Part shown: one piece after another, positions 1 to 30,024 of the stretch | Numbering within the stretch: the first letter of the stretch is position 1 | Layout of the letters: the number at the start of each line of letters is the position of its first letter | From: Bacillaceae bacterium OF18-1A | GTDB lineage: Bacteria > Bacillota > Bacilli > Bacillales > Bacillaceae_G | DNA: 64,000 nt | Assembly: GCA_027694045.1 (NCBI GenBank) | Contig: JAQEWB010000009.1 | Location: 1 to 64,000 of the forward strand | Direction of reading: 5' to 3' | Translations under genes and position numbers: made by a program | The notes under the pieces: model-generated | What the model saw: only the letters and a program-made list of their open reading frames with translations | Databases searched by the model: none | Told to the model about the DNA's origin: nothing

Positions 1-338
1 GATAAACCAATGTACTCAGCCTTATCCATTTACACAGACTTCTTGACGGAACCCTACCAGAACAAAAACCGATTGAATTAATTACGTTTGAAACGGTTTC
101 CTCTAGTGAGTGGAACGTGTATACGAATGATAAAACTTTTAAACCAAATTATTTTGTTAACATTACAGAACAAATGGATTCAAAAATTGCGGCACTCAAA
201 CATTACGATATAGAAATGAGGGATTTTCCTCATCCTCGTTCGTATGAAGGAGTGCAGCATTTAGGTAGGGTTAGGGGGATGACGGTTGGTGTACAATATG
301 CTGAAGCATTCGAAGTGATAAGGAGGATCTGGCAATGA
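1..338 (+). pseudogene. PIG-L family deacetylase, C-terminal part, probably frameshifted
   Basis: The C-terminal half reads like the PIG-L/LmbE zinc deacetylase family, which removes acetyl groups from N-acetylglucosamine-type sugars: PNYFVNITEQMDSK, PHPRSYEG, RVRGMTVGVQYAEAF. The frame carrying this region has a TAA at 3-5, only about 110 codons before the stop. Family members are about 220 residues long, so the N-terminal catalytic half cannot come from the same frame. Frame 1 is open across the window edge to 81 and carries MYSAL, where family members have a similar helix. I infer a frameshift near 40-55; a sequencing error is possible. The stop overlaps the next ATG (ATGA), so the gene was translationally coupled to the glycosyltransferase. 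Confidence 0.6.
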
Positions 339-1663
339 GAAAGAAGAGTATGTTCCCGTATCCTTATATAATCGAAGCAATGGATCAACATTTTGGAATA
401 CAATCATTTTTGCCGCCAAAAAAGAAGAGTAAACTGCGAGGACGATACGTAAATACAAGACCACAGATGATGTTGAAGAAAAGAAGGCTTTCTATATTAA
501 TTGCAACATTTTGGGATTATCCTCATATGGGAGGGTTATCTAATTATATTACGGCACTTAGTGAAGGTTTAAGAAAACTAGGTCATAAAGTTGATATTAT
601 CTCACCTAACCAATTTCCTGTGAACGAAGTAAAAACTATGCGCACAGAGGTTGTTTCAGAATTGAAAAGCTTTTTTCATACACGCTATGGAAGTTATAAC
701 AGCACGATTGTAAAAAGTCAAAGACATATGTATGTATATGAGATGATGCTTAAAAATATCAATTTACAAAAATATGATGTCTTTCACCCACAAGATTTAT
801 TTACAGCCAATATATTGGGAAGAATTAATGAAGTTTATAGGAAACCGTTGCTATTTACGCCCCATGGGATGTTTACTTTTAATCGGGTGAGATTTGGCAT
901 ATTTCAAAAAGGTTCATTAGAAGAACTTTATTATAAAACATTAGAATGTAAAGCGATTGAATTTGCTAATCATCTTATCATTCTCAGTGATTCATTTCGT
1001 GATCCATTAATGCAGCTGGGGGCAAAGCAAGAAAAAATGACAACAGTGCTTACGGGTATTAATTATCCTGAAAAGTATGGTACAAAAAATACATCGACAC
1101 AAAAAGAACTCGTTATTACATGTGTGGCGAGATTAGGACCAAGAAAAGGTCATAAAGTATTATTTGACGCTCTTTCAAAGATGGAGAAAAAATATACTGA
1201 CAACATGAAAGTACTTATTGCCGGCGATGGTGAGATGAGAGATGCGCTAGAAAAGCAAGTTGCTTCTTTGGGTCTTTCTATGGTGGAGTTTTTGGGAGAA
1301 AGAGATGATGTGCCAAACATTTTAAGTGAAACTGATATTTTTGTACTTCCAACTTTAAATGATAGCCTACCTATTTCTATTATTGAAGCCATGCATAGTG
1401 GATCTTGTGTCATTTCAACAATATCAGGAGGGATACCTGAATTAGTGCATCATGAACAAACAGGGATTTTACTAGAGCCAGGAGATGTAAATAAATTAGT
1501 AGATGCATTAAAGCTCGTTATTGAAAATGAAGATGAGCGGAAGCGATTAGGGGAAAATGCAAGAGCCTTCGCAAAAGAACATTTAACTAGAGAGACAATG
1601 ATAGCTCACATCGAAAAAATCTACAAAAAGTGTTTAAGTGAGGGCGGATTCTATGTATCATGA
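335..1663 (+). CDS. Glycosyltransferase family 4 (GT-B fold)
   Basis: This 442-residue protein should transfer a sugar from a nucleotide donor in the cytoplasm. After a basic N-terminal tail of about 50 residues comes the Rossmann start ILIATFWDYPHMGGLSNYI, with the glycine-rich acceptor-domain loop near residue 65. The C-terminal donor domain has CVARLGPRKG, LIAGDGEM and the E-x7-E type segment SLPISIIEAMHSGSCV followed by GGIPELV, all typical of GT4 enzymes. AAGGAGG lies upstream of the ATG. The start overlaps the deacetylase stop and the 3' end overlaps the ATP-grasp gene, so this is an operon. Donor and acceptor cannot be read from sequence. The fold is the same as BshA, but overall similarity to BshA is not evident. 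Confidence 0.88.
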   Translation: MRKKSMFPYPYIIEAMDQHFGIQSFLPPKKKSKLRGRYVNTRPQMMLKKRRLSILIATFWDYPHMGGLSNYITALSEGLRKLGHKVDIISPNQFPVNEVKTMRTEVVSELKSFFHTRYGSYNSTIVKSQRHMYVYEMMLKNINLQKYDVFHPQDLFTANILGRINEVYRKPLLFTPHGMFTFNRVRFGIFQKGSLEELYYKTLECKAIEFANHLIILSDSFRDPLMQLGAKQEKMTTVLTGINYPEKYGTKNTSTQKELVITCVARLGPRKGHKVLFDALSKMEKKYTDNMKVLIAGDGEMRDALEKQVASLGLSMVEFLGERDDVPNILSETDIFVLPTLNDSLPISIIEAMHSGSCVISTISGGIPELVHHEQTGILLEPGDVNKLVDALKLVIENEDERKRLGENARAFAKEHLTRETMIAHIEKIYKKCLSEGGFYVS

Positions 1664-2819
1664 ACACGCGGCAGTTGTATTGGATTTAAGTGCTAATGGA
1701 GTTGGGATTATTAGAAGTTTAAAGAAAAAGGGAATCAAAGTTTATGCATTTGATGTAGAAGGGCCTTATAAGATAGGGAGATCACGTCTTGCTTCATGCG
1801 GAGTATGTCCGAGTCCTTTGTTCGAGGAAAAGGAATTATTAACTTTTTTAATCCGTTTGGCTAAAGAATTGAAATTGAAACCAGTTTTATATACAGGTGC
1901 GGATGATTATGTCGTATTTATTTCAAAATATCGGACGGAGTTGTCTAACTACTATTTATTTTTATTTCCAGATCATTCATTAATTGAAGCGACATTAGAT
2001 AAACATAAAATGTATGAACTGGCAGTGAAGCATAATATTCCATGTCCTAAAACATATGTAATTGAACATAAAGAACAGCTAGAAGAAGTAATCTCGAACC
2101 TCGACTTTCCATGTATATTAAAGCCGACTTTAGGTCATAAGTTTCGAAAAAAAGTAAACAAAAAAGCTATATTCATAAAGGATCCAGATCAACTAAGAAA
2201 TGAATATGAATTGTACCGGCAGCATGGGAGGCTTCTCGCTCAGGAAATCATTCCTGGTGATAATCAGCATTTTTATAAAGTGGCTACTTTTTATGACGAC
2301 AATATGGAACTATTAGCGTTATTTTCTTTGCAAAAAAATCATCAATTTCCAGCTGAATTTGGAACGGGCGCTCATATTGTTAGTAAACAGATTCCAGAAC
2401 TAGTGGATATATGCTTACCTTTTTTTGAAAACATACACCTTAAAGGTATTGGTATGGCAGAGTTTAAAAAGGATCCTCGAGATGGTGTTTATAAATTTAT
2501 TGAAATAAACCCTCGTTTTTGGTTAACCCATAGTCTGACAGGACCTGCAGGCATCGATTTTGTTTATATGTATTATTTATATGTAACGAAGCAAAATCCA
2601 GCGCCAAGACTTAAACAAAGAGACGGCATCCAATGGATTTATCTTGTACGATACTATTTAACGTTTCGTGACAAGAAGAAAAGAGCTGAGATGACGTGGA
2701 GAGAATTTTATGAAGGGTTGCGAGGAGAAAAAGAGTATGCTCTATTTGCATGGAACGATCCGATGCCATTTATTAGAAGCGCGTGGTCTCATTTGAAGAA
2801 TGCATGGAAACGAAAATGA
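1653..2819 (+). CDS. ATP-grasp domain protein (carboxylate-amine ligase-like)
   Basis: ATP-grasp enzymes activate a carboxylate as acyl phosphate and join it to an amine or thiol. The N-terminal pre-ATP-grasp segment is VVLDLSANGVGIIRSLKKKG. The ATP-binding lysine region is FPCILKPTLGHKF, followed by LLAQEIIPG. The metal-binding end of the active site is GIGMAEFKKD and FIEINPRFWLTHSL, where E and N of EINPR should bind magnesium. I chose the ATG at 1653, 9 bases after a GAGG, over an in-frame GTG at 1638. It overlaps the glycosyltransferase end by 11 bases. The layout resembles D-aspartate ligase-like and polysaccharide-decorating ATP-grasp proteins. The substrate is unknown. Confidence 0.83.
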   Translation: MYHEHAAVVLDLSANGVGIIRSLKKKGIKVYAFDVEGPYKIGRSRLASCGVCPSPLFEEKELLTFLIRLAKELKLKPVLYTGADDYVVFISKYRTELSNYYLFLFPDHSLIEATLDKHKMYELAVKHNIPCPKTYVIEHKEQLEEVISNLDFPCILKPTLGHKFRKKVNKKAIFIKDPDQLRNEYELYRQHGRLLAQEIIPGDNQHFYKVATFYDDNMELLALFSLQKNHQFPAEFGTGAHIVSKQIPELVDICLPFFENIHLKGIGMAEFKKDPRDGVYKFIEINPRFWLTHSLTGPAGIDFVYMYYLYVTKQNPAPRLKQRDGIQWIYLVRYYLTFRDKKKRAEMTWREFYEGLRGEKEYALFAWNDPMPFIRSAWSHLKNAWKRK

Positions 2820-3889
2820 AAGGACTGACAGCATTGTACGAGGCGAAAGTATTATCCTATTATTTCAAGAGGTTGAAAATTTCAGAGAAACTTTCTTATT
2901 CAATGGGCGAAAGAGTTGTAATAGATCCTGTTAAAATTGAATGTTTGAAATCAACGACAAGAACTAGTATCTACAAATTATCTATTCGGAAAAAAATAAA
3001 AAACGAATTTATTATTTTAAAAGTATATAATTCAGCTAACTACAAAAATGAAATAGAGATTCAAGTATATCAAAGAGCTTATTCTATATTAAAGGAGTTT
3101 CTTCCTCAAATATATCATATTGAAAAAAAAGGAACTGAAACATGGGTATTCATGGAGTTTATCCAGCAAGTACGCGGTCAGATTACTTTTTCTCCAAAAC
3201 ACTTTGAACATATTATCCCCACTATTGCTAAACTTCACACACACACATTTGAAGACAATTTTAAAAAACATCAAGATGTTTGGAATCCATGGCTCCCTAT
3301 TTATGAATCAAGTAAAATGAGAAGTAATCGTTCTAGATATATTGGAAGAACGGTTGGTTTTCTCGATGATGCAATGCAAGATGAAAGAGTAAGGGAAACT
3401 ATTAAGCCATATTATAAATCGTTAGTAGAACTATGTAATAAAGGGCCAGATTTTTTTCCAGAGCTATTGGAAAATGGTTCATCTATAACGCATGGAGATC
3501 TTCATATGCAAAATATATGTAGTAACAATGTGACGCTAGATGCGCCGTGGAATATTCAATTTATCGATTGGGAGTCTATTAAATATGGACCAGTTTGGTT
3601 TGATATGGTTGTTTTAGTTGAAATATTATTAGGTTTTAGAAAAGATTGGCAGAGCAATGCCGAAGAAATTCGCACGCATTGTGTGGAATTATACACATCA
3701 GAAATGCAGAAGAATGGCATTCAATTTAAAACAGCTCCAATGGATCTTTATAAAATGGCATATGTGCAGAGAACGTTAGAAAAGGGGCTGCATACTCAGC
3801 TGCGGAGAATATTCAATAACCGTGGTGGTGAATTATTACCATATCATCTTGAAAAAGTTTCAACATGGGGAAGAGAACTAGGTTTATAG
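2816..3889 (+). CDS. Aminoglycoside phosphotransferase-fold kinase
   Basis: A small-molecule kinase of the APH/choline kinase fold. The Brenner motif is ITHGDLHMQN (catalytic Asp) and the metal-binding motif is FIDWESIKYGP, close together in the C-terminal half; N-terminally ILKVYN fits the ATP lysine strand. The ATG at 2816 overlaps the ATP-grasp stop as ATGA, which I prefer; an ATG at 2804 is a possible alternative. It is the last gene of the operon with the deacetylase, glycosyltransferase and ligase, and a large hairpin follows. The neighbours suggest it phosphorylates the sugar or sugar-amino acid product. It need not be a resistance enzyme, because many APH-fold proteins act on primary or secondary metabolites. 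Confidence 0.78.
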   Translation: MKGLTALYEAKVLSYYFKRLKISEKLSYSMGERVVIDPVKIECLKSTTRTSIYKLSIRKKIKNEFIILKVYNSANYKNEIEIQVYQRAYSILKEFLPQIYHIEKKGTETWVFMEFIQQVRGQITFSPKHFEHIIPTIAKLHTHTFEDNFKKHQDVWNPWLPIYESSKMRSNRSRYIGRTVGFLDDAMQDERVRETIKPYYKSLVELCNKGPDFFPELLENGSSITHGDLHMQNICSNNVTLDAPWNIQFIDWESIKYGPVWFDMVVLVEILLGFRKDWQSNAEEIRTHCVELYTSEMQKNGIQFKTAPMDLYKMAYVQRTLEKGLHTQLRRIFNNRGGELLPYHLEKVSTWGRELGL

Positions 3890-3956
3890 TGGATAAATAA
3901 ATTATGAATAAGAAATATGAATGAAAAGGTTAGTTATCGGCGGAGTGAGCTTGTTA

Positions 3957-4007
3957 TTAAAACCCAGTTATTTATTCAATATAATCGAATAAATAACTGG
4001 GTTTTAA
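3957..4007 (+). terminator. Large perfect hairpin ending the sugar operon
   Basis: Perfect 21-bp arms (3957-3977 and 3987-4007) separated by 9 bases. The stem is flanked by TTAA and a modest T run. It sits 70 bases after the kinase gene and is the likely operon terminator. It is longer than a usual terminator. Confidence 0.6.
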
Positions 4008-4076
4008 CAATATTTTAGGCAAGAGCGTTCGCACTTAATGACTTTTGAGAATTCTCAAAAGTAGCGGGCGTGTATG
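4000..4076 (-). pseudogene. Decayed partial copy of an internal DUF3900 gene segment
   Basis: This stretch aligns with 4618-4695 inside the neighbouring DUF3900 gene. Shared blocks include AGGCA, AGAGCGTTCG and the 15-base run AAAGTAGCGGGCGTG, with scattered substitutions and small gaps between. No open frame survives. It is a short remnant of a duplicated or paralogous gene in the same orientation as the intact one. Homology does not clearly extend further on the right. Confidence 0.6.
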
Positions 4077-12676: not shown

Positions 12677-15592
12677 ATGAAAGGTTATTCGAAAAAAGTG
12701 TTAGTAGGGGTAAGTTTTGCTAGTTTAATGTTAGGGAGTTTTCAGGGGAGCGTATTGGCGGAAGATACGAAAGGAGAGCCAGTTTCTTATCGGAATGTGC
12801 TCAAAATGGAGCCAAATGGTGTACAACTGCCAGCGCAAGAATTAGCTCATTCATCAAAAGTATTAGAAAACAAATCTTTTGAGAAAAGACTACAATTTGC
12901 TGATTTATCACAAAGACCACCAGAAGTGAAAAAAGAAAGTAAGCAACTAGCTGCAGCAAAAACTTATACAATTGCCGAATTAAATCAATTAAGTAATCAG
13001 CAGTTAGTAGATGTACTTGTAACAATCAATTGGGAGCAAATTACAGGGCTATTTCAGTTTCATAAGGACAGCCTTGCATTCTATCAAAATGATAGTAGGA
13101 TGCAGGCAATTATTGATAAATTGAAGCAGCAAGGACAAGCTTATACGAAAGATGATTCGAAAGGGATAGAGACATTAGTAGAGGTATTACGTTCTGGTTT
13201 TTATTTAGGTTTTTACAATCCAGAATTAAGTAAATTAAATGAACGGAGTTATCATGATAAGTGCTTACCGGCATTAAAAGCAATCGCTAACAATTCAAAT
13301 TTCAAGCTTGGTACATTAGAACAAAATAGAGTTGTATCGTCATATGGAAAGCTAATTGGAAATGCTTCTAGTGATGTGGAAACTGTTACACAAGCTGCAA
13401 AGATTTTTAAACAATATAATGATAATCTTTCTACATTTGTAGATAATCGCTCAGCTGGAAGTGCGATTTACGATATTATGCAAGGTGTTGATTATGATAT
13501 TCAATCGTATTTATACGATACGAGAAAAACACCGAAAGATACAATGTGGTATCAAAAAATAGATAGTTATATTAACGAATTAAGCCGATTTGCGTTAATT
13601 GGAACGGTGACAGAAAAAAATGGATGGTTAATTAATAATGGAATTTATTATACAGGTAGACTCGGCACGTTCCACAGTACAGGAACGAAAGGATTGCAAG
13701 TTGTAACGGATGCGATGAAAATCTATCCGTATTTAGGTGAGCAATATTTCGTAGCAGCTGAGCAAATTACGACGAATTATGGCGGGAAAGACGCGAATGG
13801 TAAAGTCGTTAATTTAGATGAAATAAGAGAAGAAGGTAAGAAAAAATATTTGCCAAAAACGTATACGTTTGATGACGGAGCAATTGTGTTAAAAGCTGGG
13901 GATAAAGTGACTGAGGAAAAAGTAAAACGATTATATTGGGCGGCAAAAGAAGTGAAGGCTCAATTCCATCGTACTGTTGAAAGTGACCAGCCTTTAGAAA
14001 AAGGAAATCCTGATGATGTATTAACGATGGTTATTTATAATAGTCCAGCTGAATATCAATATAACCGTCAATTGTACGGATATGAAACGAATAACGGTGG
14101 TCTTTATATAGAAGGAACAGGTACGTTCTTTACTTATGAACGTACGCCAGAAGAAAGTATTTATAGTTTAGAAGAGTTATTCCGACATGAGTTTACACAT
14201 TACTTACAAGGTAGATATGAAGTGCCAGGACTTTGGGGGCAAGGAAAGATTTATGAGAATGAGAGGTTATCTTGGTTTGAAGAAGGAAATGCTGAATTTT
14301 TCGCAGGTGCAACGAGAACAGATAATGTTGTGCCAAGAAAGAGTATCATAGGAGGACTATCTTCAAATCCAGCAGAGCGTTATACGGCAGAGAGAACGTT
14401 AAATGCAAAATATGGAACGTGGGATTTCTATAATTATTCCTTCGCTTTACAATCGTACATGTACAATAAGAGATATGATATGTTTGACAAAATTCATGAT
14501 CTGATTAGAAAAAATGACGTAACAGCATATGATGCATACCGCTCTGCTTTAAGTAAAGATGCGAACTTAAATAAAGAGTATCAAGATTATATGCAAATGT
14601 TAGTTGATAATCGTGATAAATATAATGTGCCGTTAGTATCAGACGATTATTTAGTAACTCATGCGCCGAAGCCAGTTTCGGACATTGCGACAGAAATTAC
14701 AGCCGAAGCAAAATTAAGTAATGTATCAGTAAAGAAAAATAAATCACAGTTCTTTCATACATTTACACTGCAAGGAACATATACAGGAACGGCAGCAAAA
14801 GGAGAGTATGAAGACTGGAAAACAATTACCCAAAACGTTAATGATACGTTAAAGCGTTTAAGTGCAAAAGAATGGACAGGCTATAAAACGGTAACAGCAT
14901 ACTTCGTAAATTATCGCGTGAATGCATCAGGACAATTTGAATATGATATTGTGTTCCATGGTATTAATACGGAAGAAGGTGCTGTGAATAAAGCACCAGT
15001 TGCAGTTATTAACGGTCCATATAGTGGAAATGTTAATGAAGCAATTTTATTTAAAAGCGATGGATCAAAAGATGAAGATGGAAAAATTGTTGCTTATAAA
15101 TGGGAGTTTGGTGATGGTACCGTAAGCAATGAACAAAATCCAACTCACGTTTATACAAAAGAAGGAACGTATACGGCAAAACTAACAGTAACAGATGATA
15201 AAGGAGCAACTAATACTGCTACAACGAATGTAACTGTTCAAAAGAAAGAAGATAACAGTGTAGAAAAAGAGCCGAACAATTCATTCCAAACAGCAAATAA
15301 ACTGCCATTAAATCAAATTTTACGTGCTAGTTTAGGAAATGGTGATACGAGTGATTTCTTTGAAATAAATGTGGAAACGGCGAAAAACCTACAAATTAAT
15401 GTAACGAAGGAAAATAATATCGGAGTAAACTGGGTTCTTTATTCTGAAGCAGATTTAAACAATTATATTACGTATGCTCAGCAACAAGGTAATAAATTAG
15501 TAGGTAGTTATTATACGTATCCTGGGAAGTATTATTTACATGTATATCAGTATGGTGGGGGAGTAGGGAATTATACGGTAGAAGTGAAATGA
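12677..15592 (+). CDS. colA: Secreted collagenase ColA (peptidase M9)
   Basis: 971 residues with a signal peptide (cleavage near SVLAED). It degrades native collagen outside the cell. Order: N-terminal activator domain, M9 peptidase domain, one PKD domain (about 773-855, APVAVINGPYSG to TVTDDKGATN) and a C-terminal pre-peptidase/collagen-binding domain (VEKEPNNSFQTANKL to the end). The zinc site is visible: H504-E505-x-x-H508 (RHEFTHYL) and a third ligand E536 in WFEEGNAEFF, 28 residues after H508 as in clostridial ColG. The ATG has AGGTAGGGGAG upstream. Collagenases of this group are often PlcR-controlled, but I found no good PlcR box here. A terminator follows, so the gene stands alone. Confidence 0.96.
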   Translation: MKGYSKKVLVGVSFASLMLGSFQGSVLAEDTKGEPVSYRNVLKMEPNGVQLPAQELAHSSKVLENKSFEKRLQFADLSQRPPEVKKESKQLAAAKTYTIAELNQLSNQQLVDVLVTINWEQITGLFQFHKDSLAFYQNDSRMQAIIDKLKQQGQAYTKDDSKGIETLVEVLRSGFYLGFYNPELSKLNERSYHDKCLPALKAIANNSNFKLGTLEQNRVVSSYGKLIGNASSDVETVTQAAKIFKQYNDNLSTFVDNRSAGSAIYDIMQGVDYDIQSYLYDTRKTPKDTMWYQKIDSYINELSRFALIGTVTEKNGWLINNGIYYTGRLGTFHSTGTKGLQVVTDAMKIYPYLGEQYFVAAEQITTNYGGKDANGKVVNLDEIREEGKKKYLPKTYTFDDGAIVLKAGDKVTEEKVKRLYWAAKEVKAQFHRTVESDQPLEKGNPDDVLTMVIYNSPAEYQYNRQLYGYETNNGGLYIEGTGTFFTYERTPEESIYSLEELFRHEFTHYLQGRYEVPGLWGQGKIYENERLSWFEEGNAEFFAGATRTDNVVPRKSIIGGLSSNPAERYTAERTLNAKYGTWDFYNYSFALQSYMYNKRYDMFDKIHDLIRKNDVTAYDAYRSALSKDANLNKEYQDYMQMLVDNRDKYNVPLVSDDYLVTHAPKPVSDIATEITAEAKLSNVSVKKNKSQFFHTFTLQGTYTGTAAKGEYEDWKTITQNVNDTLKRLSAKEWTGYKTVTAYFVNYRVNASGQFEYDIVFHGINTEEGAVNKAPVAVINGPYSGNVNEAILFKSDGSKDEDGKIVAYKWEFGDGTVSNEQNPTHVYTKEGTYTAKLTVTDDKGATNTATTNVTVQKKEDNSVEKEPNNSFQTANKLPLNQILRASLGNGDTSDFFEINVETAKNLQINVTKENNIGVNWVLYSEADLNNYITYAQQQGNKLVGSYYTYPGKYYLHVYQYGGGVGNYTVEVK

Positions 15593-15594
15593 TG

Positions 15595-15622
15595 AAAAGG
15601 TCGCCATTATGGCGACCTTTTT
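15595..15622 (+). terminator. Terminator of colA
   Basis: GGTCGCCAT and ATGGCGACC arms with a T run. Its stem is nearly the same as the one at 15985-16017. Confidence 0.9.
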
Positions 15623-15642
15623 GTTGCATGTTATATAAAAAA

Positions 15643-15825
15643 TTAAATGAAATTGATAAAAGTTTGATAGGCAATACCAAGGGAAAATACGGTAGCTACC
15701 ATATGTGCAGTCCATTTAGGCATATTTAATTTCAATACGGTATTGTACAAGATTCCATATACAATATAAATAATTAATATAAATGCAATGAATTGAAGAA
15801 CTAACAAAAATAGTGGTTGTTCCAT
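15643..15825 (-). CDS. Small two-helix membrane protein
   Basis: 60 residues, mostly hydrophobic: one membrane segment at about 5-27 (LFLLVLQFIAFILIIYIVYG) and another at about 41-59. GAGGTGAGGA lies just before the ATG at 15825. I do not recognise a family. It is monocistronic and flanked on both sides by nearly identical hairpins. No function can be inferred. Confidence 0.7.
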   Translation of the reverse strand: MEQPLFLLVLQFIAFILIIYIVYGILYNTVLKLNMPKWTAHMVATVFSLGIAYQTFINFI

Positions 15826-15984
15826 TTATCCTCACCTCTCTTATTTGATATATTAATATAACATATTTACAAGTGGAAGAGTTATTTCTATAAAGTACCA
15901 AAAATGTGATATGAAAGGGTGATTGGTAATTACAAAAATTAACGCGAACTATCATGTAACGTAAGGTATTATTATAAAATTAGT

Positions 15985-16017
15985 AAAAAAGGGTCGCCAT
16001 TAATGGCGACCTTTTTT
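15985..16017. terminator. Bidirectional terminator
   Basis: GGTCGCCATT and AATGGCGACC form a nearly continuous palindrome flanked by A6 and T6. It most likely ends the minus-strand acetyltransferase gene, whose stop lies at its edge. Confidence 0.85.
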
Positions 16018-16519
16018 ACGCGTTATAGCCAAATAATTTTAAATCTTCTCCTGAGCCCGAAATGATTTCTTCGAACCGCAATCCGACTTTTTCTAAAAGT
16101 TTTCCTGAATTAACATTGTCTATAGAAGTAATTGCTACAATTCGTTTCATTCCTAGCTTTTGTACACCATATTCGATTACCGCAGAAGCTGACTCGTATC
16201 CGTATCCTTTTGAGCGGAATTTTTCTAAAAAGGCAAAGCCAATATCAACATCTTTTAATGAATCCCTTTTAATAAGACCACACATGCCAATTGGTGTAAG
16301 GTCTTCTTTTCGTTCTACTAAATAAAGGCCAAATCCGATTTTGTTATACATATCGACTGGTCCATTTACAATATATTTTTTAGCGTCTTCTAAGTTTTGA
16401 ACTCTTTTATCACCAATAAACTGAATCCATGCAGGGTCGTTTACTAATTCAAGAATAAACGGAGCATCTTTTATATGAAACCAACGAAGATTGAGGCGTT
16501 CAGTTTCTAAAACTATCAA
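16016..16519 (-). CDS. GNAT acetyltransferase, RimJ/RimL-like
   Basis: 167 residues with the layout of ribosomal-protein-type acetyltransferases: ETERLNLRWFHIKDAPFILEL at the start, GLYLVERKEDLTPIGMCGL, the acetyl-CoA loop FRSKGYGYESASAVIEYG, and MKRIVAITSIDNVNSGKLLEKVGLRFE. Such enzymes acetylate N-terminal or side-chain amines, and many are of unknown substrate. The start appears to be TTG at 16519, with AAAGGTGG upstream; no ATG is available nearby. It is transcribed alone. Confidence 0.87.
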   Translation of the reverse strand: MIVLETERLNLRWFHIKDAPFILELVNDPAWIQFIGDKRVQNLEDAKKYIVNGPVDMYNKIGFGLYLVERKEDLTPIGMCGLIKRDSLKDVDIGFAFLEKFRSKGYGYESASAVIEYGVQKLGMKRIVAITSIDNVNSGKLLEKVGLRFEEIISGSGEDLKLFGYNA

Positions 16520-16686
16520 TCTATTGCACCACCTTTACAGTTATAACAATTAGTATGGATTGTGTGAAACAAAAGTGCAACATATTTTAATGGAGATTTA
16601 TTCGTTCACATAAAGTTCGTTTGTTTTGTATAAAAGGATATTTTATAATTAGGATTGATTGTAAAGAGAGAAACGCTCATGCAATG

Positions 16687-16710
16687 ACTCCTAGGTAACT
16701 AGGAGTTTTT
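16687..16710 (+). terminator. Hairpin in the 5' region of the DUF2871 gene
   Basis: ACTCCTAG and CTAGGAGT with a 4-base loop, then TTTTT. It lies between the divergent gene and the ribosome site of the next gene, so it could attenuate that gene or end a short upstream transcript. No known riboswitch motif was recognised. Confidence 0.55.
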
Positions 16711-16773
16711 ACTATATAACTATCATTATTACTAAATATGTCACACTACACATTTTACTCAAGGAGGTACATA

Positions 16774-17175
16774 ATGAAAAAATTATATAATGCATCGTTT
16801 ACTTATTTAATTATAGGTTTACTATCAGGAATATTTGCTAGGGAGTATGGGAAATTTAAAGGGATTTTAGGATCTACTTTGTTAAATCTTCTGCATACGC
16901 ATACACTTGTACTTGGCTTTTTCTTCTTTTTGATTGCTTTAGGGTTAGCAAAAGTATTCGCGTTTCATGAAGTGAAAGGGTTTAATAAATGGTTTGTTTT
17001 ACATAACATCGCACTAACTCTAATGTTAGGTTCGCTGGCAGCGAGAGGGCTTCTTCAGTTAAATGGAGCAGATTTCAAAGGGTTAACGTATATTGTAGGA
17101 TTCTCTCATTCAATGATGGCAGTTACATTAGTTTGGTTTATGCTTTTAATAAAGAAGTCATTCAATATGAAATGA
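16774..17175 (+). CDS. DUF2871-type four-helix membrane protein
   Basis: 133 residues with four hydrophobic segments: LYNASFTYLIIGLLSGIFARE, LLHTHTLVLGFFFFLIALGLA, WFVLHNIALTLMLGSLAARG, and IVGFSHSMMAVTLVWFMLLI. Conserved-looking His residues sit in or near helices two to four (HTHTLVLG, LHNIAL, GFSHSMM), suggesting a heme- or metal-handling layout as in NnrS/cytochrome-like small proteins, though this is inference. It matches DUF2871 as I remember it. AAGGAGG lies 6 bases before the ATG at 16774, which is better than the in-frame upstream ATG at 16738. A terminator follows. Confidence 0.78.
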   Translation: MKKLYNASFTYLIIGLLSGIFAREYGKFKGILGSTLLNLLHTHTLVLGFFFFLIALGLAKVFAFHEVKGFNKWFVLHNIALTLMLGSLAARGLLQLNGADFKGLTYIVGFSHSMMAVTLVWFMLLIKKSFNMK

Positions 17176-17212
17176 AAAAAGAACTTGTAGCGAGTGCTGC
17201 AAGTTCTTTTTT
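17175..17212 (+). terminator. Terminator of the DUF2871 gene
   Basis: AAAAGAACTTG-TAGC and GC-CAAGTTCTTTT type arms with a short loop and T run. Confidence 0.88.
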
Positions 17213-17292
17213 GTGTATAATAATCTTATTTTTCTAATTATTTTGTATAAAAATGGTATACTTATTTTAAAATTAAAAAAGGAGAGTTAGTG

Positions 17293-18684
17293 ATGGAAAT
17301 AACAATTGAACATTTAGTAAATGAATTAAAGGATATACTTCCTGAAGATCGAGTAGTAATCAATACGACAGTAAGAGAGTTACATAGTAAAGATGAATCA
17401 TATCACACTAGTAGTTTACCTGATGTAGTTGTTTTTCCGAAAACGACTGAAGAAGTTAGCGAAATAATGAAAGTAGCGAGTGAGCATAAAAAACCTGTCG
17501 TTCCTTTCGGTGTAGGTTCTAGTTTAGAAGGACACATTATTCCATATGAAAAAGGAATCACAATGGACTTTTCACTTATGAATAAAATACTTGAAATAAG
17601 AGAGAAAGATTTTCTTGTGAGGGTACAGCCAGGAGTAACTCGCTCTCAGCTCAATAAAGAATTGAAAAAGTACGGTCTGTTTTTTAGTGTAGATCCAGGG
17701 GCAGATGCAACATTAGGTGGAATGGCTGCTACGAATGCGAGCGGAACCACAGCGGTAAGATATGGAGTTATGCGTGATCAAGTTCGTGATTTAGAGGTGG
17801 TACTTGCTGATGGACAAGTGATACATACTGGTAATTTAGCTGCGAAGTCATCATCAGGTTATCATTTAAATGGTATTTTCGTAGGATCAGAGGGTACGCT
17901 TGGATGCTTTACAGAACTAACGTTAAAAGTATACGGCATACCAGAACATGTGATGGCGGCGCGAGCATCGTTTCCAACTATAAATGATGCAGTAGAAGCT
18001 GTTATTAACATATTGCAAGCGGGTATTCCAATTGCTCGAATTGAACTCGTTGATGAACTATCGATGAAACAAGTAAATCATTATAATGAAACAAGTTACA
18101 GAGAAGAGCCTACACTGTTTTTAGAGTTTCATGGCAATGAAGCAGGACTAAAGCAAGACATTGAATTTACGAAAGAAATTGTTCTTGATCATAAATGTAA
18201 AGAAATTGCGTTTGAGACAGAAACAGCGGCAAGAAATAAATTATGGGATGCAAGACATAACTTAGCATACTCATATGTGCATAGTTATCCTGGTAAAAAG
18301 CTAATGAGTACAGATGTATGTGTACCAATTTCAGAATTAGCTGGCGCGATTCATCATGCGAAAGAAGTATTAGAGAAAGTAGGTCTAATTGGTGGTATCC
18401 TTGGCCATGTTGGGGACGGGAATTTCCATGTGCTTTTAATGATTAATCCAAATGATAAAGAAGAAGTGAAAAAAGCAGACGAAATAAATGAAAGTATCGT
18501 TCTATATGCTCTTAAACGAGGCGGAACGTGTACGGGAGAACATGGCGTAGGAATCGGAAAACGGAAGTACCAGGAAGAAGAACATGGGGCGGCATTACTC
18601 GTAATGGAAAAAATAAAGAAAGCTCTTGACCCGCAAAATATTTTGAATCCGAATAAAGTGTTCAAGTTGAAGGATAGGGGATGA
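17293..18684 (+). CDS. FAD-linked oxidase, GlcD / D-lactate dehydrogenase type
   Basis: 463 residues of the FAD-binding type 4 (VAO) fold. It oxidises a 2-hydroxy acid such as D-lactate or glycolate and passes electrons on. FAD-binding segments are VVPFGVGSSLEGHIIP and GGMAATNASGTTAVRYGVMRD; the C-terminal cap has the conserved GHVGDGNFHV and TGEHGVGIGK, where the histidines line the active site. Length and motifs agree with stand-alone GlcD/Dld proteins; no iron-sulfur partner gene is adjacent. The ATG at 17293 lies six bases after GGAGAG. The next small gene starts seven bases after its stop, so the two are probably co-transcribed. Confidence 0.9.
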   Translation: MEITIEHLVNELKDILPEDRVVINTTVRELHSKDESYHTSSLPDVVVFPKTTEEVSEIMKVASEHKKPVVPFGVGSSLEGHIIPYEKGITMDFSLMNKILEIREKDFLVRVQPGVTRSQLNKELKKYGLFFSVDPGADATLGGMAATNASGTTAVRYGVMRDQVRDLEVVLADGQVIHTGNLAAKSSSGYHLNGIFVGSEGTLGCFTELTLKVYGIPEHVMAARASFPTINDAVEAVINILQAGIPIARIELVDELSMKQVNHYNETSYREEPTLFLEFHGNEAGLKQDIEFTKEIVLDHKCKEIAFETETAARNKLWDARHNLAYSYVHSYPGKKLMSTDVCVPISELAGAIHHAKEVLEKVGLIGGILGHVGDGNFHVLLMINPNDKEEVKKADEINESIVLYALKRGGTCTGEHGVGIGKRKYQEEEHGAALLVMEKIKKALDPQNILNPNKVFKLKDRG

Positions 18685-18690
18685 TAAAAT

Positions 18691-19038
18691 GTGCAAAAAC
18701 GTATTATACATTGTGAAGGCCTAATTATATTATTAGCCACGATTTATATGTATTCATTATATGAATTTAGTTGGATTATATTTTTAGTGTTTCTTTTAAC
18801 GCCGGATTTATCAGCGTTAGCATACGGTATAAATAATCATGTTGGTGCAAAAATCTATAATGTATTTCACACATATACCATATCCATATTACTTGTTTTA
18901 ATAGGTGTCTATTTTAAAATAGATACCGTTATAATGGCAGGCTTAATATGGACGGCGCATATCGGAATGGATCGAATGTTTGGATATGGATTGAAATATG
19001 AGACAGATTTTAAAGATACTCATATTCAAAGGTTATAA
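18691..19038 (+). CDS. DUF4260-type small membrane protein
   Basis: 115 residues with about four hydrophobic segments and the C-terminal signature HIGMDRMFGYGLKYETDFKDTHI, which I associate with DUF4260 proteins (sometimes labelled YdjM-like). Function unknown. The start is GTG at 18691, only seven bases after the oxidase stop, with GGGG-type pairing upstream. It forms a likely operon with the FAD oxidase and perhaps GrpB, though a role in hydroxy-acid oxidation is not implied. Confidence 0.78.
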   Translation: MQKRIIHCEGLIILLATIYMYSLYEFSWIIFLVFLLTPDLSALAYGINNHVGAKIYNVFHTYTISILLVLIGVYFKIDTVIMAGLIWTAHIGMDRMFGYGLKYETDFKDTHIQRL

Positions 19039-19061
19039 TTGTTTTTGAGAAGAGGGACATA

Positions 19062-19589
19062 TTGAAACAGAGAATTACTATCGAAGAATATAACATTAAA
19101 TGGGAAAGTGAATTTTATAAACTACAAACTCTCATTAAAGATGTAATGGAAGGCAATATTTTATTTATTGAACATGTTGGGAGTACATCTGTTAAAGGAC
19201 TTGCATCGAAGCAAATATTAGACATTGATGTTGTCATAGAAGATTACGAAATTTTTCCTGAAGTAGTAAAAAAGCTTGAAACGGTAGGGTACTATCACCA
19301 ACTAGAGTGGAGCTTCAAAGGGAGAGAAGCGTTTGGAAGAAAGGATGCTTTCGTTCCATGGAGTGAGGAAAATACAGTTTGGATAGAACATCATCTATAT
19401 GTGTGTGATAAGAATAGTGAAGAGCTAAAAAGACATGTAGCGTTTCGGGATTACCTTCGTAAACATGATGATGTTGCTATTGAATATGGTCGTTTAAAGA
19501 AAAAGTTAGCAAGAGAGTCGAAAAATCGAGTTAGCTATACGGAAGGAAAGACAGCTTTTATTACAGCAATATTAAAAAAGATAAACTAA
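19062..19589 (+). CDS. GrpB family nucleotidyltransferase-fold protein
   Basis: 175 residues. HVGSTSVKGLASKQILDIDVVIED carries the G-S-x9-D-x-D pattern of the nucleotidyltransferase fold found in GrpB/UPF0157 proteins, which also occur fused to dephospho-CoA kinase. The C-terminal half has the usual HHLYVCDKNSEELKRHVAFRDYLR and YTEGKTAFI. Function is not firmly established. The start is TTG at 19062 after AGAGGG. It follows the DUF4260 gene by 23 bases and could be in the same transcript. Confidence 0.88.
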   Translation: MKQRITIEEYNIKWESEFYKLQTLIKDVMEGNILFIEHVGSTSVKGLASKQILDIDVVIEDYEIFPEVVKKLETVGYYHQLEWSFKGREAFGRKDAFVPWSEENTVWIEHHLYVCDKNSEELKRHVAFRDYLRKHDDVAIEYGRLKKKLARESKNRVSYTEGKTAFITAILKKIN

Positions 19590-19721
19590 GGCGGCAGAAG
19601 TACATGCGGCCTATTTTTTTAGATAGGAATCTGCCATTATAAAACAAATACAAACTGGCCCTGTTGGGTGCTGTGCGACTCAAATATAATGAGAAATAAA
19701 AGATTGGAAAAGAGGGAATTT

Positions 19722-20321
19722 ATGTACATACCAAAATACTTCGCAATACAAGATGAAGAGATGAAGTGCGAAATAATCGAACAAAATAGCTTTGCAACAC
19801 TATTCTCTCAACATAATGGAGAGCCATATGCAACGCATTTACCGTTGTTGCTAAATAGAGAAACACTCACATTACACGGGCACTTTGCACGTCCGAATGA
19901 ACAGTGGAGAGATACTAGGGATCAGCAAGTACTAGCTATCTTTCAAGGACCGCATAGTTATATCTCTCCTTCATGGTATGAAACAAAAAATGCAGTACCA
20001 ACCTGGAATTATGTTGCAGTACATGTATACGGTGAATTAGAAATTGTTGAGGATGAACAGGAATTATTAAATTCTCTTCAAGATTTATTACATACATATG
20101 AAGATCCAAAGAGTGCCTACTCACTTGATGATGTAGACCCGAATTATATGGCGGGATTAAGTAAGGGGATAGTTGGATTCAAAATAAAGATAAATAAAAT
20201 AGAAGGAAAAGCGAAGTTAAGTCAAAATCATTCTGTGGAAAGAAGAAAATTAGTTGTGGGGGAACTTGAGAAAGTTAATAGTGAGGGGAGTAGGGGGATT
20301 GCAGGGTTGATGAGAAGATAG
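19722..20321 (+). CDS. PaiB-like FMN-binding negative transcriptional regulator
   Basis: 199 residues, close to the usual PaiB length of about 207. Typical features are MYIPKYFAIQDEE, FATLFSQHNGEPYATHLPL, LHGHFARPNEQWRD, and the strongly conserved FQGPHSYISPSWYETKNAVPTWNY. In B. subtilis PaiB acts with PaiA on protease and sporulation genes; the biochemical role is unclear, and the fold is a split-barrel flavin binder. The ATG at 19722 has AGAGGGAA before it. No paiA neighbour is present. A terminator follows. Confidence 0.88.
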   Translation: MYIPKYFAIQDEEMKCEIIEQNSFATLFSQHNGEPYATHLPLLLNRETLTLHGHFARPNEQWRDTRDQQVLAIFQGPHSYISPSWYETKNAVPTWNYVAVHVYGELEIVEDEQELLNSLQDLLHTYEDPKSAYSLDDVDPNYMAGLSKGIVGFKIKINKIEGKAKLSQNHSVERRKLVVGELEKVNSEGSRGIAGLMRR

Positions 20322-20362
20322 AGTTTACTTGAAAGGGAAACATTCTAAATAAGTGTATTTAA

Positions 20363-20396
20363 AAAGACCTTCTTAATTGAAGGTCTTTCGTTTTTT
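20363..20396. terminator. Terminator between paiB-like and phr genes
   Basis: AAAGACCTTC and GAAGGTCTTT arms with T6 on the plus side. It also lies just beyond the minus-strand phr stop. Confidence 0.88.
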
Positions 20397-20583
20397 AAAG
20401 TGCTTTTTCAGCTGTTGTTTGGTTGTAATCTTTGCTTACGTCAACAGATTGAACAAAGTCAGGTCTTTGTGGTGCAGGGAAATCAGCGTGGCCTGCTTGA
20501 TATGTAAATGAGCTATTTATCCCAATAGACACAATTCCGATAGCAGACAATCCTAATACGATAGAACTAATTTTTTTAATCAT
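20395..20583 (-). CDS. Phr-type pro-signalling peptide
   Basis: 62 residues: a basic N-terminus, a hydrophobic core (SSIVLGLSAIGIVSIGI), and a polar tail that could be cut after GHA to release DFPAPQRPDFVQ and beyond. Its start overlaps the stop of the Rap-type gene (ATGA), which is the classical rap-phr arrangement. Phr precursors are exported, trimmed to 5-7 residue peptides, re-imported by Opp and bind the TPR domain of the cognate Rap. The mature peptide is not certain: candidates lie in the Pro-rich stretch or at the C-terminal end YNQTTAEKAL. Confidence 0.75.
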   Translation of the reverse strand: MIKKISSIVLGLSAIGIVSIGINSSFTYQAGHADFPAPQRPDFVQSVDVSKDYNQTTAEKAL

Positions 20584-21674
20584 TTTAGAGCTCCTTTCTC
20601 AAACGTTTTTTCTTTTGCTTGTAACGCTTTATGAAAATATTCACTTGCTTTTATGTGATTATTTTCATTGTAAAGTTTAATCGCTAATTTTTCTGAATAT
20701 TCTTGAGTGTAGTTATATAAAGATTCTTTGTCGAAATACGTAATTCCTTCAAGAATAATTTTTTCTAAGTCCTCAGCAGACTCATTATTGTTAAGTGACT
20801 CTAAAATTTTAAAATGAAGCATATATTCTTCATTATTTAGTTCCGTACAAATTTTTAATCCCTTTTTAATGAATTGATTTGCAACATTTATTTCACCAAG
20901 CTTAGAATGCTCTCTAGCTTGTAAGAAGATTGCTTTGAAATGAGTAGGCATTTTTGTCGTCACTTCAGATAGATGACGAATAGCTAATATCGATAAGTTT
21001 TGATTAGCATATAACCATCCTAAGTTATTACGAACCCTTAAAAGTAATGATTCTTCATTTTTTTTCTGTAAAATATTGATTGCTGAATTGTATTTTTCCT
21101 CTGCTTGCTCGTATTGTTTTAAATATACAAATGCCGCTCCTAATACGCTTTCACAAGAAGCGATGTTCGTTTCGTATCCTAAAGTTTTAATGAAGAGTTC
21201 TTTCGCTTTAGTTGCATATTCAATAGCCTCAATTGGTTGATAAAAATGATAATGGAAAATAGCCATTCGATAATAAAACTCACCTTGCTCTAAATCATCA
21301 GAAGTGTTTATTAGTAGTTTCTCAGCCTTTTCATACTGTTCACTTGCTAAATTATAGTTTGTTATTAAAGTAGCATAAACCGCTTTAAACAAATGGTAAT
21401 AATAAGAAAGTGGGTGGTTAGATGAGATTGTATAAGAATCTATCTTATCAAAACTATCTTTTGCAATGCTTAAACTATCTGTTAAAACTTTATAACGAAA
21501 ATCTAGTAAAGAATGGTATAGTGCTAAGTTTTCATCTTCTTTAAAGTTTAGTTCTTTTTCTTCAAGCTCATGTTTTAAATTTGTCGCCTGTGTAACATCT
21601 TGCTTTAGCATAGATAGATACCAGTCATTAAATAGTTTCATAACTTGTTCATTACCCTGTAATTGAACGTTCAT
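20580..21674 (-). CDS. Rap family protein (aspartate phosphatase, TPR)
   Basis: 364 residues, the usual Rap length. The N-terminal helical bundle begins VMKLFNDWYLSMLKQDVTQA, matching the Rap pattern of a W-Y-containing helix. The rest is a row of about six TPR-like repeats (for example EQGEFYYRMAIFHYHFYQPIEAI and CESVLGAAFVYLKQYEQAEEK). Raps dephosphorylate Spo0F or block response regulators such as ComA, so it probably tunes sporulation or another late programme. Its partner peptide gene overlaps the stop codon. No HTH domain is seen, so it is a Rap rather than a PlcR/NprR-type activator. The target is not deducible. Confidence 0.88.
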   Translation of the reverse strand: MNVQLQGNEQVMKLFNDWYLSMLKQDVTQATNLKHELEEKELNFKEDENLALYHSLLDFRYKVLTDSLSIAKDSFDKIDSYTISSNHPLSYYYHLFKAVYATLITNYNLASEQYEKAEKLLINTSDDLEQGEFYYRMAIFHYHFYQPIEAIEYATKAKELFIKTLGYETNIASCESVLGAAFVYLKQYEQAEEKYNSAINILQKKNEESLLLRVRNNLGWLYANQNLSILAIRHLSEVTTKMPTHFKAIFLQAREHSKLGEINVANQFIKKGLKICTELNNEEYMLHFKILESLNNNESAEDLEKIILEGITYFDKESLYNYTQEYSEKLAIKLYNENNHIKASEYFHKALQAKEKTFEKGALK

Positions 21675-21887
21675 AAAATCCCCTCGCTTTTTTGAATATT
21701 CTTATAAATTATGTTATCAAAAATAACAATATTTAGAAATGGGGTTTTATATTTCTCAATATTTGTTTAGTAGATTTACTATTAAGTCTATTGGAGTGAA
21801 GTGGAGTTGGTTTTATGGTTTACAGTGAGAGAAGAGGGGATATAATTAGGCCATTGAAATATGTTTAAGTGTTCTGTTGAGGGTATA

Positions 21888-21928
21888 AAAAAGATGTGTT
21901 CATAACAATTGTATGAACACATCTTTTT
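21888..21928 (-). terminator. Terminator of selO
   Basis: 17-base perfect arms (21888-21904, 21912-21928) with A and T ends, just beyond the selO stop. The remaining bases up to 21674 hold no visible gene. Confidence 0.9.
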
Positions 21929-21937
21929 ATGAAACAA

Positions 21938-23404
21938 TCAAGTCCCACAAAAAGTACGATAAGGACGATTCGTCGGTGCGGGTGGAACGCAGTATTCTTC
22001 CTGATCCGTAGAGTATGCATAAGGGTTGGATAAAGCTTCAAGAAGCTTCTCCATTACACTATAGTCGCCATTTGTAACAGCTGCTTCTAATGCTTCTTCT
22101 ACGCGGTGGTTCCTTGGGATAATCGATGGATTATTATTTTTCATCAGCTCGTAGGCGTTCGCTTTTGATTCGTCTTGTTGTTCTAATCGAGATTGCCACT
22201 CATTGTACCATTCTTTAAATTCAGTGCTATCGAAGAAAGGGCTACTTTCTAACGTATTAAGAGTTAAAGAACGGAAAGTATTTGTGTAATCCGCTTTATA
22301 TTGCTCCATCATTTTTAAAAGTTTCTCAATAAGTGATCGATCTTGTTCTACGTTGCTAAATAGTCCTAATTTCTTTTTCATTCCAAGGAACCAATTGTTT
22401 TCATACTGTACACTAAATTTTGAAATTTCGTCTTGGGCAATCTTTAATGCTTCTTCTTCATCTTCGTGTAGGATTGGTATTAAAGATTCAGCTAATCGAG
22501 CGAGATCCCATGCTGCCATATATGGTTGGTTTCCATATGCATAACGGCCTTGTGTGTCAATGGAGCTAAATACTGTTCCTTGGTCGTAATTGTCCATAAA
22601 TGCACAAGGGCCGTAATCAATCGTTTCGCCACTAATTGTTATATTGTCGGTATTCATTACACCGTGGATAAACCCAACGAGTTGCCATTTTGCGATGAGG
22701 CTTGCTTGTCTTTTAATGACTTCTCTTAGTAATGCAGTATATCGGTTTTCATGAGATTCAATTTCTGGATAATGTCTTTTAATCGTATAGTCAGCTAGCG
22801 ATTTAAGATCCTCGATTGAGCTACGAGCTGCAGCGTATTGGAAAGTACCAACGCGTATATGACTACTAGCTACTCTAGTTAAAATTGCTCCAGGTAACTT
22901 TGTTTCACGGTAAGTTGGTTCACCAGTTGTAACAACAGCTAAACTACGAGTAGTCGGAATATCAAGTGCATACATTGCTTCGCTAATAATATATTCACGT
23001 AGCATCGGACCAAGGGCAGCACGACCGTCACCGCGGCGTGAATATGGAGTAGGGCCAGAGCCTTTTAATTGAATATCAAAACGATTACCTGATGGAGTAA
23101 TTTGTTCACCTATTAAAAGGGCACGACCGTCGCCTAACATATTAAAATGTCCGAATTGATGACCAGCGTATGCTTGGGCTAATGGATGAGCGCCTTCTGG
23201 GATGGCGTTACCAGCGAAAATAGCAATTTCAGCTTCCTTTTTCAGTTCTTCAGGGTTAAAGCCAAGAGATATCGCTAGTGAATGATTTAGTTTCACTAGC
23301 TCGGGTGAACTTACGGGAGTAGGGGGGATTTCTGTATAAAATGAATGTGGCAAAGTAGCATAACTATTATCTAAATTCCAACCTACTTCATTATTTTTAG
23401 TCAT
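21938..23404 (-). CDS. selO: Protein adenylyltransferase SelO (YdiU, pseudokinase fold)
   Basis: 488 residues, full length for the family. SelO transfers AMP from ATP to protein hydroxyls and is linked to redox stress. Conserved blocks: [100 protein letters not shown], and the C-terminal [18 protein letters not shown] with the Cys that is selenocysteine in some eukaryotic homologues. GGAGGAGA precedes the ATG. It is transcribed alone. Confidence 0.96.
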
Positions 23405-23546
23405 TTTATCTCCTCCTTGCTTATTTTTTATTATGTATTTGTACGTATGTATTCTTTGTAAAGTTAACTAAAAGTATAATGTATTATTTCCCCTTGCAAT
23501 CTATTGTAAGGACTTCAGTGCACTATGTCTATTTAACAGCAAATAT

Positions 23547-23577
23547 AAAACCTCCATTTTACGAAAATGGAGGTTTT
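23547..23577 (-). terminator. Terminator of the oxidoreductase gene
   Basis: AAAACCTCCATTTT and AAAATGGAGGTTTT with a 3-base loop, directly after the minus-strand stop. Confidence 0.88.
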
Positions 23578-23581
23578 ATTA

Positions 23582-24580
23582 TTATTTGATTTTTACAATT
23601 ATTTTCCCTTTTGCTCTTCCAGCCTCTGAATACTCCATTGCTTTTTGAGCATCTTCAAAAGGAAAAACTCGATCGATTATCGGTTTGATTTTTCCGGCTT
23701 CAATATAGTTTGCAATAATACGTAATTGATCCCCACTTGGTTTCATAAATAAAAATGAATATTGAGCATTATGCTTTTTTTCAAGTGCAGTAAGTTTTTT
23801 GCTAGCTAATGAAAATAAGAAAGTTTTAAAAAATCCAGAACCAAATTCTTTACCGAAGCGAGCATTCGGCATTCCTGAAACAGAAACAATGTTGCCACCG
23901 CTTTTTATAATATTGAATGATTTTTCAAGTGTTGTCCCGCCGATTGTATCAAATACTGCATCATAATTTGTTAGTATATCTTCAAATTTCTCTGTTTTGT
24001 AATTAATAATTTCATCTGCGCCAAGAGATTTTACTAAATTCGCACCAGCTTCACTGGCAGTTGTTGCAACGGTAGCCCCCATTATTTTTGCTAATTGGAT
24101 AGCGAAAGTACCAACACCACCGGATCCAGCGTGAATTAAAATCTTTTGTCCTTTTTGTAACTGCATAATGTCATGTAATGCTTGATAAGATGTTAAGCCA
24201 ACGAGTGGAATGGATGCTGCTTCCTCAAAACTTAAATTTTTCGGTTTTAAAGCTATATCATCTTCATGAATAGCTATATATTCTGCAAAAGTACCGATTT
24301 TATTTTTTCTTGGGCGTGCATATATTTCATCGCCAACTTTAAAGCGAGTCACTTTTGCGCCAACCTTTACGATAACACCTGAAAAGTCATTTCCAAGAAT
24401 TAGTGGCATGTCATATTTAAGCAACATCTTCACTTTTCCATCGCGTATTTTAAAATCAATTGGGTTAATACTAGCTGCATGAATCTCTGCTAGCACTTCA
24501 TTCTCATTTATTTCAGGAGTGGGTACCTCTATCATACGCATTGGAACTTTCCCATATTTATCAATCACCATTGCTCTCAT
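23582..24580 (-). CDS. NADP-dependent oxidoreductase of the MDR/quinone reductase family
   Basis: 332 residues of the medium-chain dehydrogenase/reductase superfamily without the structural zinc cysteines. N-terminal GroES-like part: AASINPIDFKIRDGKVKM, LGNDFSGVIVKVG, GDEIYARPRK. The Rossmann NADPH site is ILIHAGSGGVGTFAIQLAKIMGA. C-terminal AMEYSEAGRAKGKIIVKIK. Such enzymes reduce quinones or enones. An ArsR-type regulator sits 31 bases upstream in the same direction, so the pair is probably one unit, with the regulator sensing the reactive substrate. Confidence 0.9.
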   Translation of the reverse strand: MRAMVIDKYGKVPMRMIEVPTPEINENEVLAEIHAASINPIDFKIRDGKVKMLLKYDMPLILGNDFSGVIVKVGAKVTRFKVGDEIYARPRKNKIGTFAEYIAIHEDDIALKPKNLSFEEAASIPLVGLTSYQALHDIMQLQKGQKILIHAGSGGVGTFAIQLAKIMGATVATTASEAGANLVKSLGADEIINYKTEKFEDILTNYDAVFDTIGGTTLEKSFNIIKSGGNIVSVSGMPNARFGKEFGSGFFKTFLFSLASKKLTALEKKHNAQYSFLFMKPSGDQLRIIANYIEAGKIKPIIDRVFPFEDAQKAMEYSEAGRAKGKIIVKIK

Positions 24581-24611: not shown

Positions 24612-24947
24612 TCAATAAAAATTGTTCAATAGCTTCTCAATATCTAATACAAGATTTTTTAATAAACCTAATTTTGTACGTATATCAATATAATAAAAGT
24701 TTTTTGTACCTTCTTTTCGCATTAAAATAATACCGGCTTCTCTTAAAATCCTAAGGTGATGTGATACGGCTGGTCGAGAAAGGTGTGTTTGTTTCGTAAT
24801 TTCTCCTACACGTAATCCGGTTTGACATTCTGTTTCCATTAAAACTAACAAAATGGCTTGACGCGTTTCATCACCAATGGCTAATAATACTTTTTGAGAA
24901 TCAATAAAATCTTTTTTTATAACATTTAATTGTTCTTGTTTATTCAT
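24612..24947 (-). CDS. ArsR-type winged-helix regulator
   Basis: 111 residues. The winged helix is clear: LLAIGDETRQAILLVLME, VGEITKQTHLSRPAVSHHLRILREAGIILMRKEGTKNFYYI. The classical metal-binding ELCVC motif of ArsR is absent; one Cys (TECQTG) is present just before the recognition region. A redox or electrophile sensor is therefore more likely than a metal sensor, which is inference. It lies upstream of the oxidoreductase gene and probably controls it. Confidence 0.9.
   Translation of the reverse strand: MNKQEQLNVIKKDFIDSQKVLLAIGDETRQAILLVLMETECQTGLRVGEITKQTHLSRPAVSHHLRILREAGIILMRKEGTKNFYYIDIRTKLGLLKNLVLDIEKLLNNFY

Positions 24948-29043: not shown

Positions 29044-30024
<981 letters not shown>

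Follow-up and report, generated by a model that had tools for sequence, protein, structure and literature searches.

The first 3,889 nucleotides (nt) of a 64,000-nt stretch of contig JAQEWB010000009.1 from Bacillaceae bacterium OF18-1A (the whole stretch is called the window here) carry four genes, for a PIG-L family deacetylase, a family 4 glycosyltransferase (GT4), an ATP-grasp enzyme and a kinase. Together they probably represent a conserved sporulation operon of Bacillales, which builds or modifies a spore-surface glycan, either in the exosporium or in the outer coat/crust. The promoters of relatives and the gene neighbourhoods on Priestia plasmids point to the spore surface as the site; for this genome, we infer the substrates, the location on the spore (from the relatives) and the order of the steps (from the enzyme classes). 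The four open reading frames (ORFs) are packed on the forward strand, neighbouring genes overlapping by 4, 11 and 4 nt with the chosen starts, and are followed by a hairpin:

52..338, + strand: PIG-L family deacetylase, 3' part of the gene, placed by DNA alignment to the intact gene of locus L001
335..1663, + strand: GT4 glycosyltransferase, 442 amino acids (Pfam PF00534, 135.3 bits; PF13439)
1653..2819, + strand: ATP-grasp enzyme of the carboxylate-amine ligase type, 388 amino acids (PF02786, 27.4 bits; PF08443, 22.9 bits)
2816..3889, + strand: kinase of the EcKL/APH/choline-kinase fold, 357 amino acids (PF02958 (EcKL), 32.4 bits; PF01636 (APH), 31.6 bits)
3952..4012, + strand: terminator-type hairpin 3' of the kinase gene (-27.7 kcal/mol, z -8.4)

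The starts of the ligase gene (ATG 1653) and the kinase gene (ATG 2816) were set by homology, the longest-ORF starts being 1638 and 2783, and the hairpin, with its loop of 9, is absent from a hairpin list with a loop limit of 8. A first-pass annotation had described four overlapping genes of these enzyme classes in one operon, with an ATP-grasp ligase instead of BshC; the ORFs, the Pfam matches and the overlaps of 4-11 nt bear out the former, and the Pfam models confirm the latter.

The four-gene order had been named beforehand as something to be sought in other genomes, and it is widely kept. By searching 397 genomes of the order with the ATP-grasp protein (E<=1e-60), the protein was found in 23, and 26 loci were examined, comprising L001, three named Priestia plasmids and 22 fetched regions. 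At the DNA level, the collagenase gene of the window had matches at E<=0.001 in 13 of the 397 genomes, the best of them 70% identical, and none is thus closely related to this genome. The arrangement PIG-L, GT4, ATP-grasp, kinase occurs on one strand in 23 of the 26. Counted by genome, 20 of the 23 with the ligase have the complete set, one lacks PIG-L (L030, with no PIG-L in place within the operon) and two have orphan ligases (L048 and L049, at 38-39% identity and without the other operon genes). In 14 of the 23 complete loci a second GT4 gene comes after that of the kinase, and in 8 an NAD-epimerase gene stands directly behind this second GT4. At 8169-10649 of L042 the GT4 and the ATP-grasp enzyme are fused in one ORF of 826 amino acids, spanning GT4 residues 3-430 of 442 and ligase residues 2-388 of 388; this fusion was seen in one genome, and it was not called by the annotators of the deposited entry P0051 (315 amino acids), since that entry begins inside the fused ORF. 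The four proteins show correlated pairwise identities, with r values of 0.83-0.89 over 18 of the 23 loci (five near-duplicates removed), although shared descent alone could explain this. As a separate observation, a RIO/protein-kinase-like gene of 184-231 amino acids is located within 1 kb upstream of PIG-L in 11 of the 23 loci (L001, L031-L037, L039, L041 and L042).

Evidence for expression during sporulation comes from the sequence upstream of PIG-L in the relatives. The motif CATANNNTA resembles the -10 element recognised by the sigma factors of the mother cell, SigK and SigE. Of 23 loci, 15 have it no more than 90 nt upstream of PIG-L, as do 39 of the 340 ORFs used as controls (Fisher p 1.2e-8); after dereplication the figure is 10 of 16 loci. 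A further box, TGNCNGTT(T/G)C, is present upstream in 14 of the 23 loci versus 1 of the 340 controls, and the starts of its strict form and of CATANNNTA lie 27-28 nt apart in all 9 loci with both. Eighteen upstream regions align as GCNNATGNCNGTTTC, a gap of 16-18 nt and CATATA-TA, and the same arrangement of box and CATATA-TA precedes PIG-L at about 29268-29312 of plasmid pBM600 (L076) from Priestia megaterium QM B1551. The conserved box may be a promoter element specific to the operon, at a near-fixed distance from the -10. Across 21 genomes the box has 23 matches, against 1 for a reversed-pattern control, of which 8 are at the operon; CATANNNTA is not visible in the 75 nt printed at the other 15. 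On these genome-wide matches, as far as seen, the box was rejected as a regulon marker.

A second line of evidence is provided by the Priestia plasmids. In a plasmid collection the ligase was matched in 37 Priestia records, and the kinase in 37 Priestia records and one of Cytobacillus. On pBM600 the four-gene operon occupies 29342-33536, two Coat_X genes are located at 24945-25944, 3.4 kb from it, and upstream the plasmid has six genes annotated as glycosyltransferases (13960-23746), as well as wecB and two NAD-epimerase genes. Genes annotated as 'spore coat protein' lie within about 4 kb of the operon in L002-L004 and on pBM600, and a match to the Coat_X model was confirmed for one gene in L002 and two on pBM600. 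A gene annotated as stage II sporulation protein P stands 4 kb past the kinase on the plasmid from Cytobacillus (L078). Strains of P. megaterium without an exosporium have the absence of pBM600 in common, from which the authors of that work inferred that the plasmid encodes essential exosporium components (PMC4674009). The genes BMQ_pBM60028/29/30, called CotX1, CotX2 and CotW (PMC4656864), would correspond, judging from their order and product names, to the pBM600 genes at 24945-26355. Elsewhere on the same plasmid, at 90199-92604 (40199-42604 of L077), a further ATP-grasp gene adjoins a gene of the YheC/YheD family.

Outside these plasmids the neighbourhoods are less telling of a spore. On each side of the operon the four closest ORFs with 100 amino acids or more, where present, were surveyed with near-duplicate and Priestia-plasmid loci left out, giving 120 proteins from 16 loci. 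The commonest match was to sugar-nucleotide epimerase/dehydratase models (10 of the 120 proteins), and in L033 rmlA and rmlD, both above their cut-offs, stand 3' of the operon. GT4 enzymes and epimerases of these types are common in clusters for vegetative envelope glycans, so that the operon could instead decorate a capsule, teichuronic acid or another wall polymer; the rmlA/rmlD pair beside the L033 operon and the lack of recurrent coat genes among the listed families of the chromosomal-type loci speak for this. However, the operon sits on an exosporium plasmid, CATANNNTA is conserved upstream of it in relatives, and the GT4 reaches only 63.1 bits with the model of TuaC, from the teichuronic acid operon, versus a cut-off of 550, so that its identity as TuaC was rejected. 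A vegetative role is accordingly judged improbable, the least probable of the explanations weighed here. Decoration of an envelope glycan was the main alternative in the first-pass annotation, and it comes nearer to the favoured explanation than the pathway discussed below; what changes is the location, which the promoters of relatives and the Priestia neighbourhoods place at the spore surface and not at the vegetative wall.

Several observations weigh against an assignment to the spore surface. The window lacks the upstream region of the operon, and neither promoter nor upstream neighbour was seen for this genome. In the relatives, CATANNNTA is missing from 8 of 23 loci, no clear -35 of SigK or SigE was seen by eye near it, the control upstream regions were taken from longest-ORF starts, and the loci are related to one another. 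Only on Priestia plasmids were coat genes seen near the operon, and in the flank survey the 25 commonest families from each of the two libraries (152 and 773 matched) include no spore-coat family. The phenotypes of the spore surface seen in PMC4674009 are those of whole-plasmid loss, and since pBM600 carries 82 annotated features, its phenotype is no evidence for the operon alone. Relatives of the ATP-grasp enzyme below 60% identity also occur on Azospirillum and haloarchaeal plasmids. Finally, SigK passes its cut-off in 347 of the 397 genomes and is matched at E<=0.001 in all 397, a base rate too high for co-occurrence to be informative, and this support was dropped.

At the level of the enzymes, conserved active-site motifs are in place downstream of the deacetylase. 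In the GT4, R270, K271, D343 and E351 fall in columns that are at least 95% identical over 24 sequences, and in the kinase H226, D228, N233 and D251 are intact and invariant in 62 sequences, with a structure model of high predicted local distance difference test score (pLDDT 95.5). Fold searches place the ligase and the kinase in broad superfamilies without pointing to a substrate. Compared by sequence with solved structures, the kinase gave no match at E<=0.001 with a single sequence, and the best profile match had an E value of 0.0073. In a phage collection, 5 records were retrieved, at identities of no more than 26.5%.

From these classes a sequence of steps can be proposed. The GT4 would add an N-acetylhexosamine to an acceptor, the PIG-L enzyme would take off the N-acetyl group and free the amine, the ATP-grasp enzyme would join a carboxylate, probably of an amino acid, to this amine, and the kinase would phosphorylate either the sugar or the added group; in many relatives, the second GT4 and the NAD-epimerase/dehydratase would lengthen the chain or supply a sugar. 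That this amine receives an amino acid is put forward tentatively, and a sugar carrying both an amino acid and a phosphate is an unproven, reasonable guess as to the chemistry. With similar reserve, and at odds somewhat below even, the product may be pictured as a charged, zwitterionic group that decorates the exosporium, a deacetylated amino sugar that is aminoacylated by the ATP-grasp enzyme and then phosphorylated. In such a pathway a logic like that of bacillithiol would have moved to the spore surface, borne on a plasmid or on the chromosome and driven by the operon-specific promoter element suggested above.

The same enzyme classes (GT4, deacetylase, ligase and kinase) would also suit a soluble small molecule, similar to bacillithiol or to an aminoglycoside and perhaps made in the mother cell, which would not be bound to the surface. 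The fold neighbours of the kinase are antibiotic and small-molecule kinases, BshA ranks third of 37 models for the GT4, and BshB1 is the best-scoring model for the intact PIG-L of L001. Nevertheless, all of the thiol models fall far under their cut-offs. As BshA (TIGR03999) the GT4 scored 97.9 bits versus 273.7, and as MshA of mycothiol synthesis 84.3 versus 462.5; the intact L001 PIG-L scored 68.3 and 59.5 bits as BshB1 and BshB2, versus 182.5 and 195.25, and none of these identities was accepted. The BshC model is not among the matches listed for the four genes of the window (for the GT4, the best 25 of 37), and an enzyme of the ATP-grasp class takes the place of BshC as the ligating enzyme. 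Therefore, membership in the bacillithiol or mycothiol pathway, whose logic was first read into this operon, is not supported by the sequence models. As the first-pass annotation had also stated, the true bshB2 and yojF lie elsewhere in the window:

51126-51476: DUF1806 protein (184.3 bits), which we take to be of the YojF type
51492-52154: BshB2 (334.7 bits versus a cut-off of 195.25)

Their presence there argues against a soluble product of this kind, as do the operon's neighbours, namely surface-sugar and coat genes on pBM600 and sugar epimerases as the recurrent flanks of other loci. A soluble product is hence considered unlikely, if slightly less so than the vegetative glycan. About 2 kb past bshB2, the protein encoded at 54367-55341 has a weak match of the MshD type (GNAT), with 73 bits versus a cut-off of 163.

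The proposed spore-surface glycan operon may not be complete in this genome. The window opens with what appears to be the end of a mobile element:

1..53, strand not assigned: right end of an IS256-family insertion sequence (IS), abutting the PIG-L fragment, placed by BLAST and gapped local alignment (inner boundary within a few bases)

In BLAST, bases 21-56 are 88.9% identical over 36 nt to an IS256-family right end (E 7e-4), at a site that begins 19 nt beyond the point where an annotated IS256-family transposase stops, and gapped local alignment stretches the match to bases 1-59 at the same place. Similar short IS ends occur in 102 plasmid records, 84 of them from Enterococcus; in one (H127) of the two records opened, the 2.5 kb to each side contain no annotated IS256 transposase, and the exact pattern of the IS end had 0 matches in viral contigs. 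The open stretch of frame +3 begins at base 6, yet similarity to PIG-L begins only at base 52 in the DNA alignment with an intact relative. The PIG-L remnant reported earlier thus stands as the C-terminal part of the protein from base 52, and bases 1 to about 53 match the IS256-family end. In keeping with a C-terminal fragment, the tail has no Pfam match and a weak NCBIfam match to BshB1 (22.6 bits). The region of the metal site lies outside the window; in relatives, its motif HPDD is present in 22 of 23 proteins and HHxGDxNxDH in 23 of 23. In the PIG-L of L039, HFDDE replaces HPDDE at the metal-site motif.

It appears that an IS inserted into the deacetylase gene and that the contig ends within the repeat. 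Since the IS256-type end sits within the gene, the deacetylase is probably inactive in this genome and the PIG-L step missing. The operon may accordingly be in decay here, the three remaining genes no longer giving the full product, which is compatible with each of the other explanations and is given a little under even chances. The operon of L030, without PIG-L, fits such a loss, whereas the three downstream ORFs are of full length and keep their conserved residues. Moreover, a PIG-L that is 70% identical to that of L001 is listed on another contig of Jeotgalibacillus soli, the species from which L030 may come, so that in L030 the deacetylase might act in trans.

Among known systems, pBM600 is the closest, with the same four-gene operon near Coat_X and many glycosyltransferase genes, although it belongs to another organism and the upstream context of the window is cut off. 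BclA1, BclA2, BxpB and Alr are named in PMC4674009, and a search of its main text for glycosyl-, deacetylase, carbamoyl- and sugar found none of these terms, so that the four-gene operon is taken as not described in it. Another example of spore-surface sugar genes is given by the crust/outer-coat polysaccharide genes of B. subtilis, namely spsM, spsABCDEFGIJKL, yfnHGFED, ytdA-ytcABC and cgeAB-cgeCDE (PMC7439481). Bacillithiol biosynthesis (BshA, BshB1/B2, BshC) shares the logic of GT4, PIG-L deacetylase and amino-acid ligation; it differs in that its models stay under cut-off and that the operon has an ATP-grasp enzyme for BshC and an extra kinase. The butirosin cluster encodes BtrM (GT4), BtrD (PIG-L) and BtrJ (ATP-grasp), and aminoglycoside clusters also contain APH-type kinases. 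The neighbourhood and spread of the operon differ from theirs as far as seen, scaffold genes not having been searched by model. In B. subtilis, CotSA and CotS (cotSA/cotS) form a pair of a GT4 and an APH-fold kinase, and we know of no PIG-L and ATP-grasp pair among the spore-surface sugar genes of that species.

Adhesion, hydrophobicity and persistence are governed by the surface of the spore and, to our knowledge, the chemistry of many exosporium and crust glycans of Bacillus is unknown. A cassette of defined order, located on pBM600 of a tractable and non-pathogenic host, makes the chemistry of one spore layer directly testable; if the ligase and the kinase act as proposed, aminoacyl and phosphate modifications would join the repertoire of spore-surface sugars. 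No earlier description of the four-gene cassette was found in the open-licence literature, most subscription papers lying outside this scope, which is no proof of absence. B. subtilis was already known to have operons for spore-surface sugars, and P. megaterium to have an exosporium plasmid; what is new is the conserved cassette of PIG-L, GT4, ATP-grasp enzyme and kinase.

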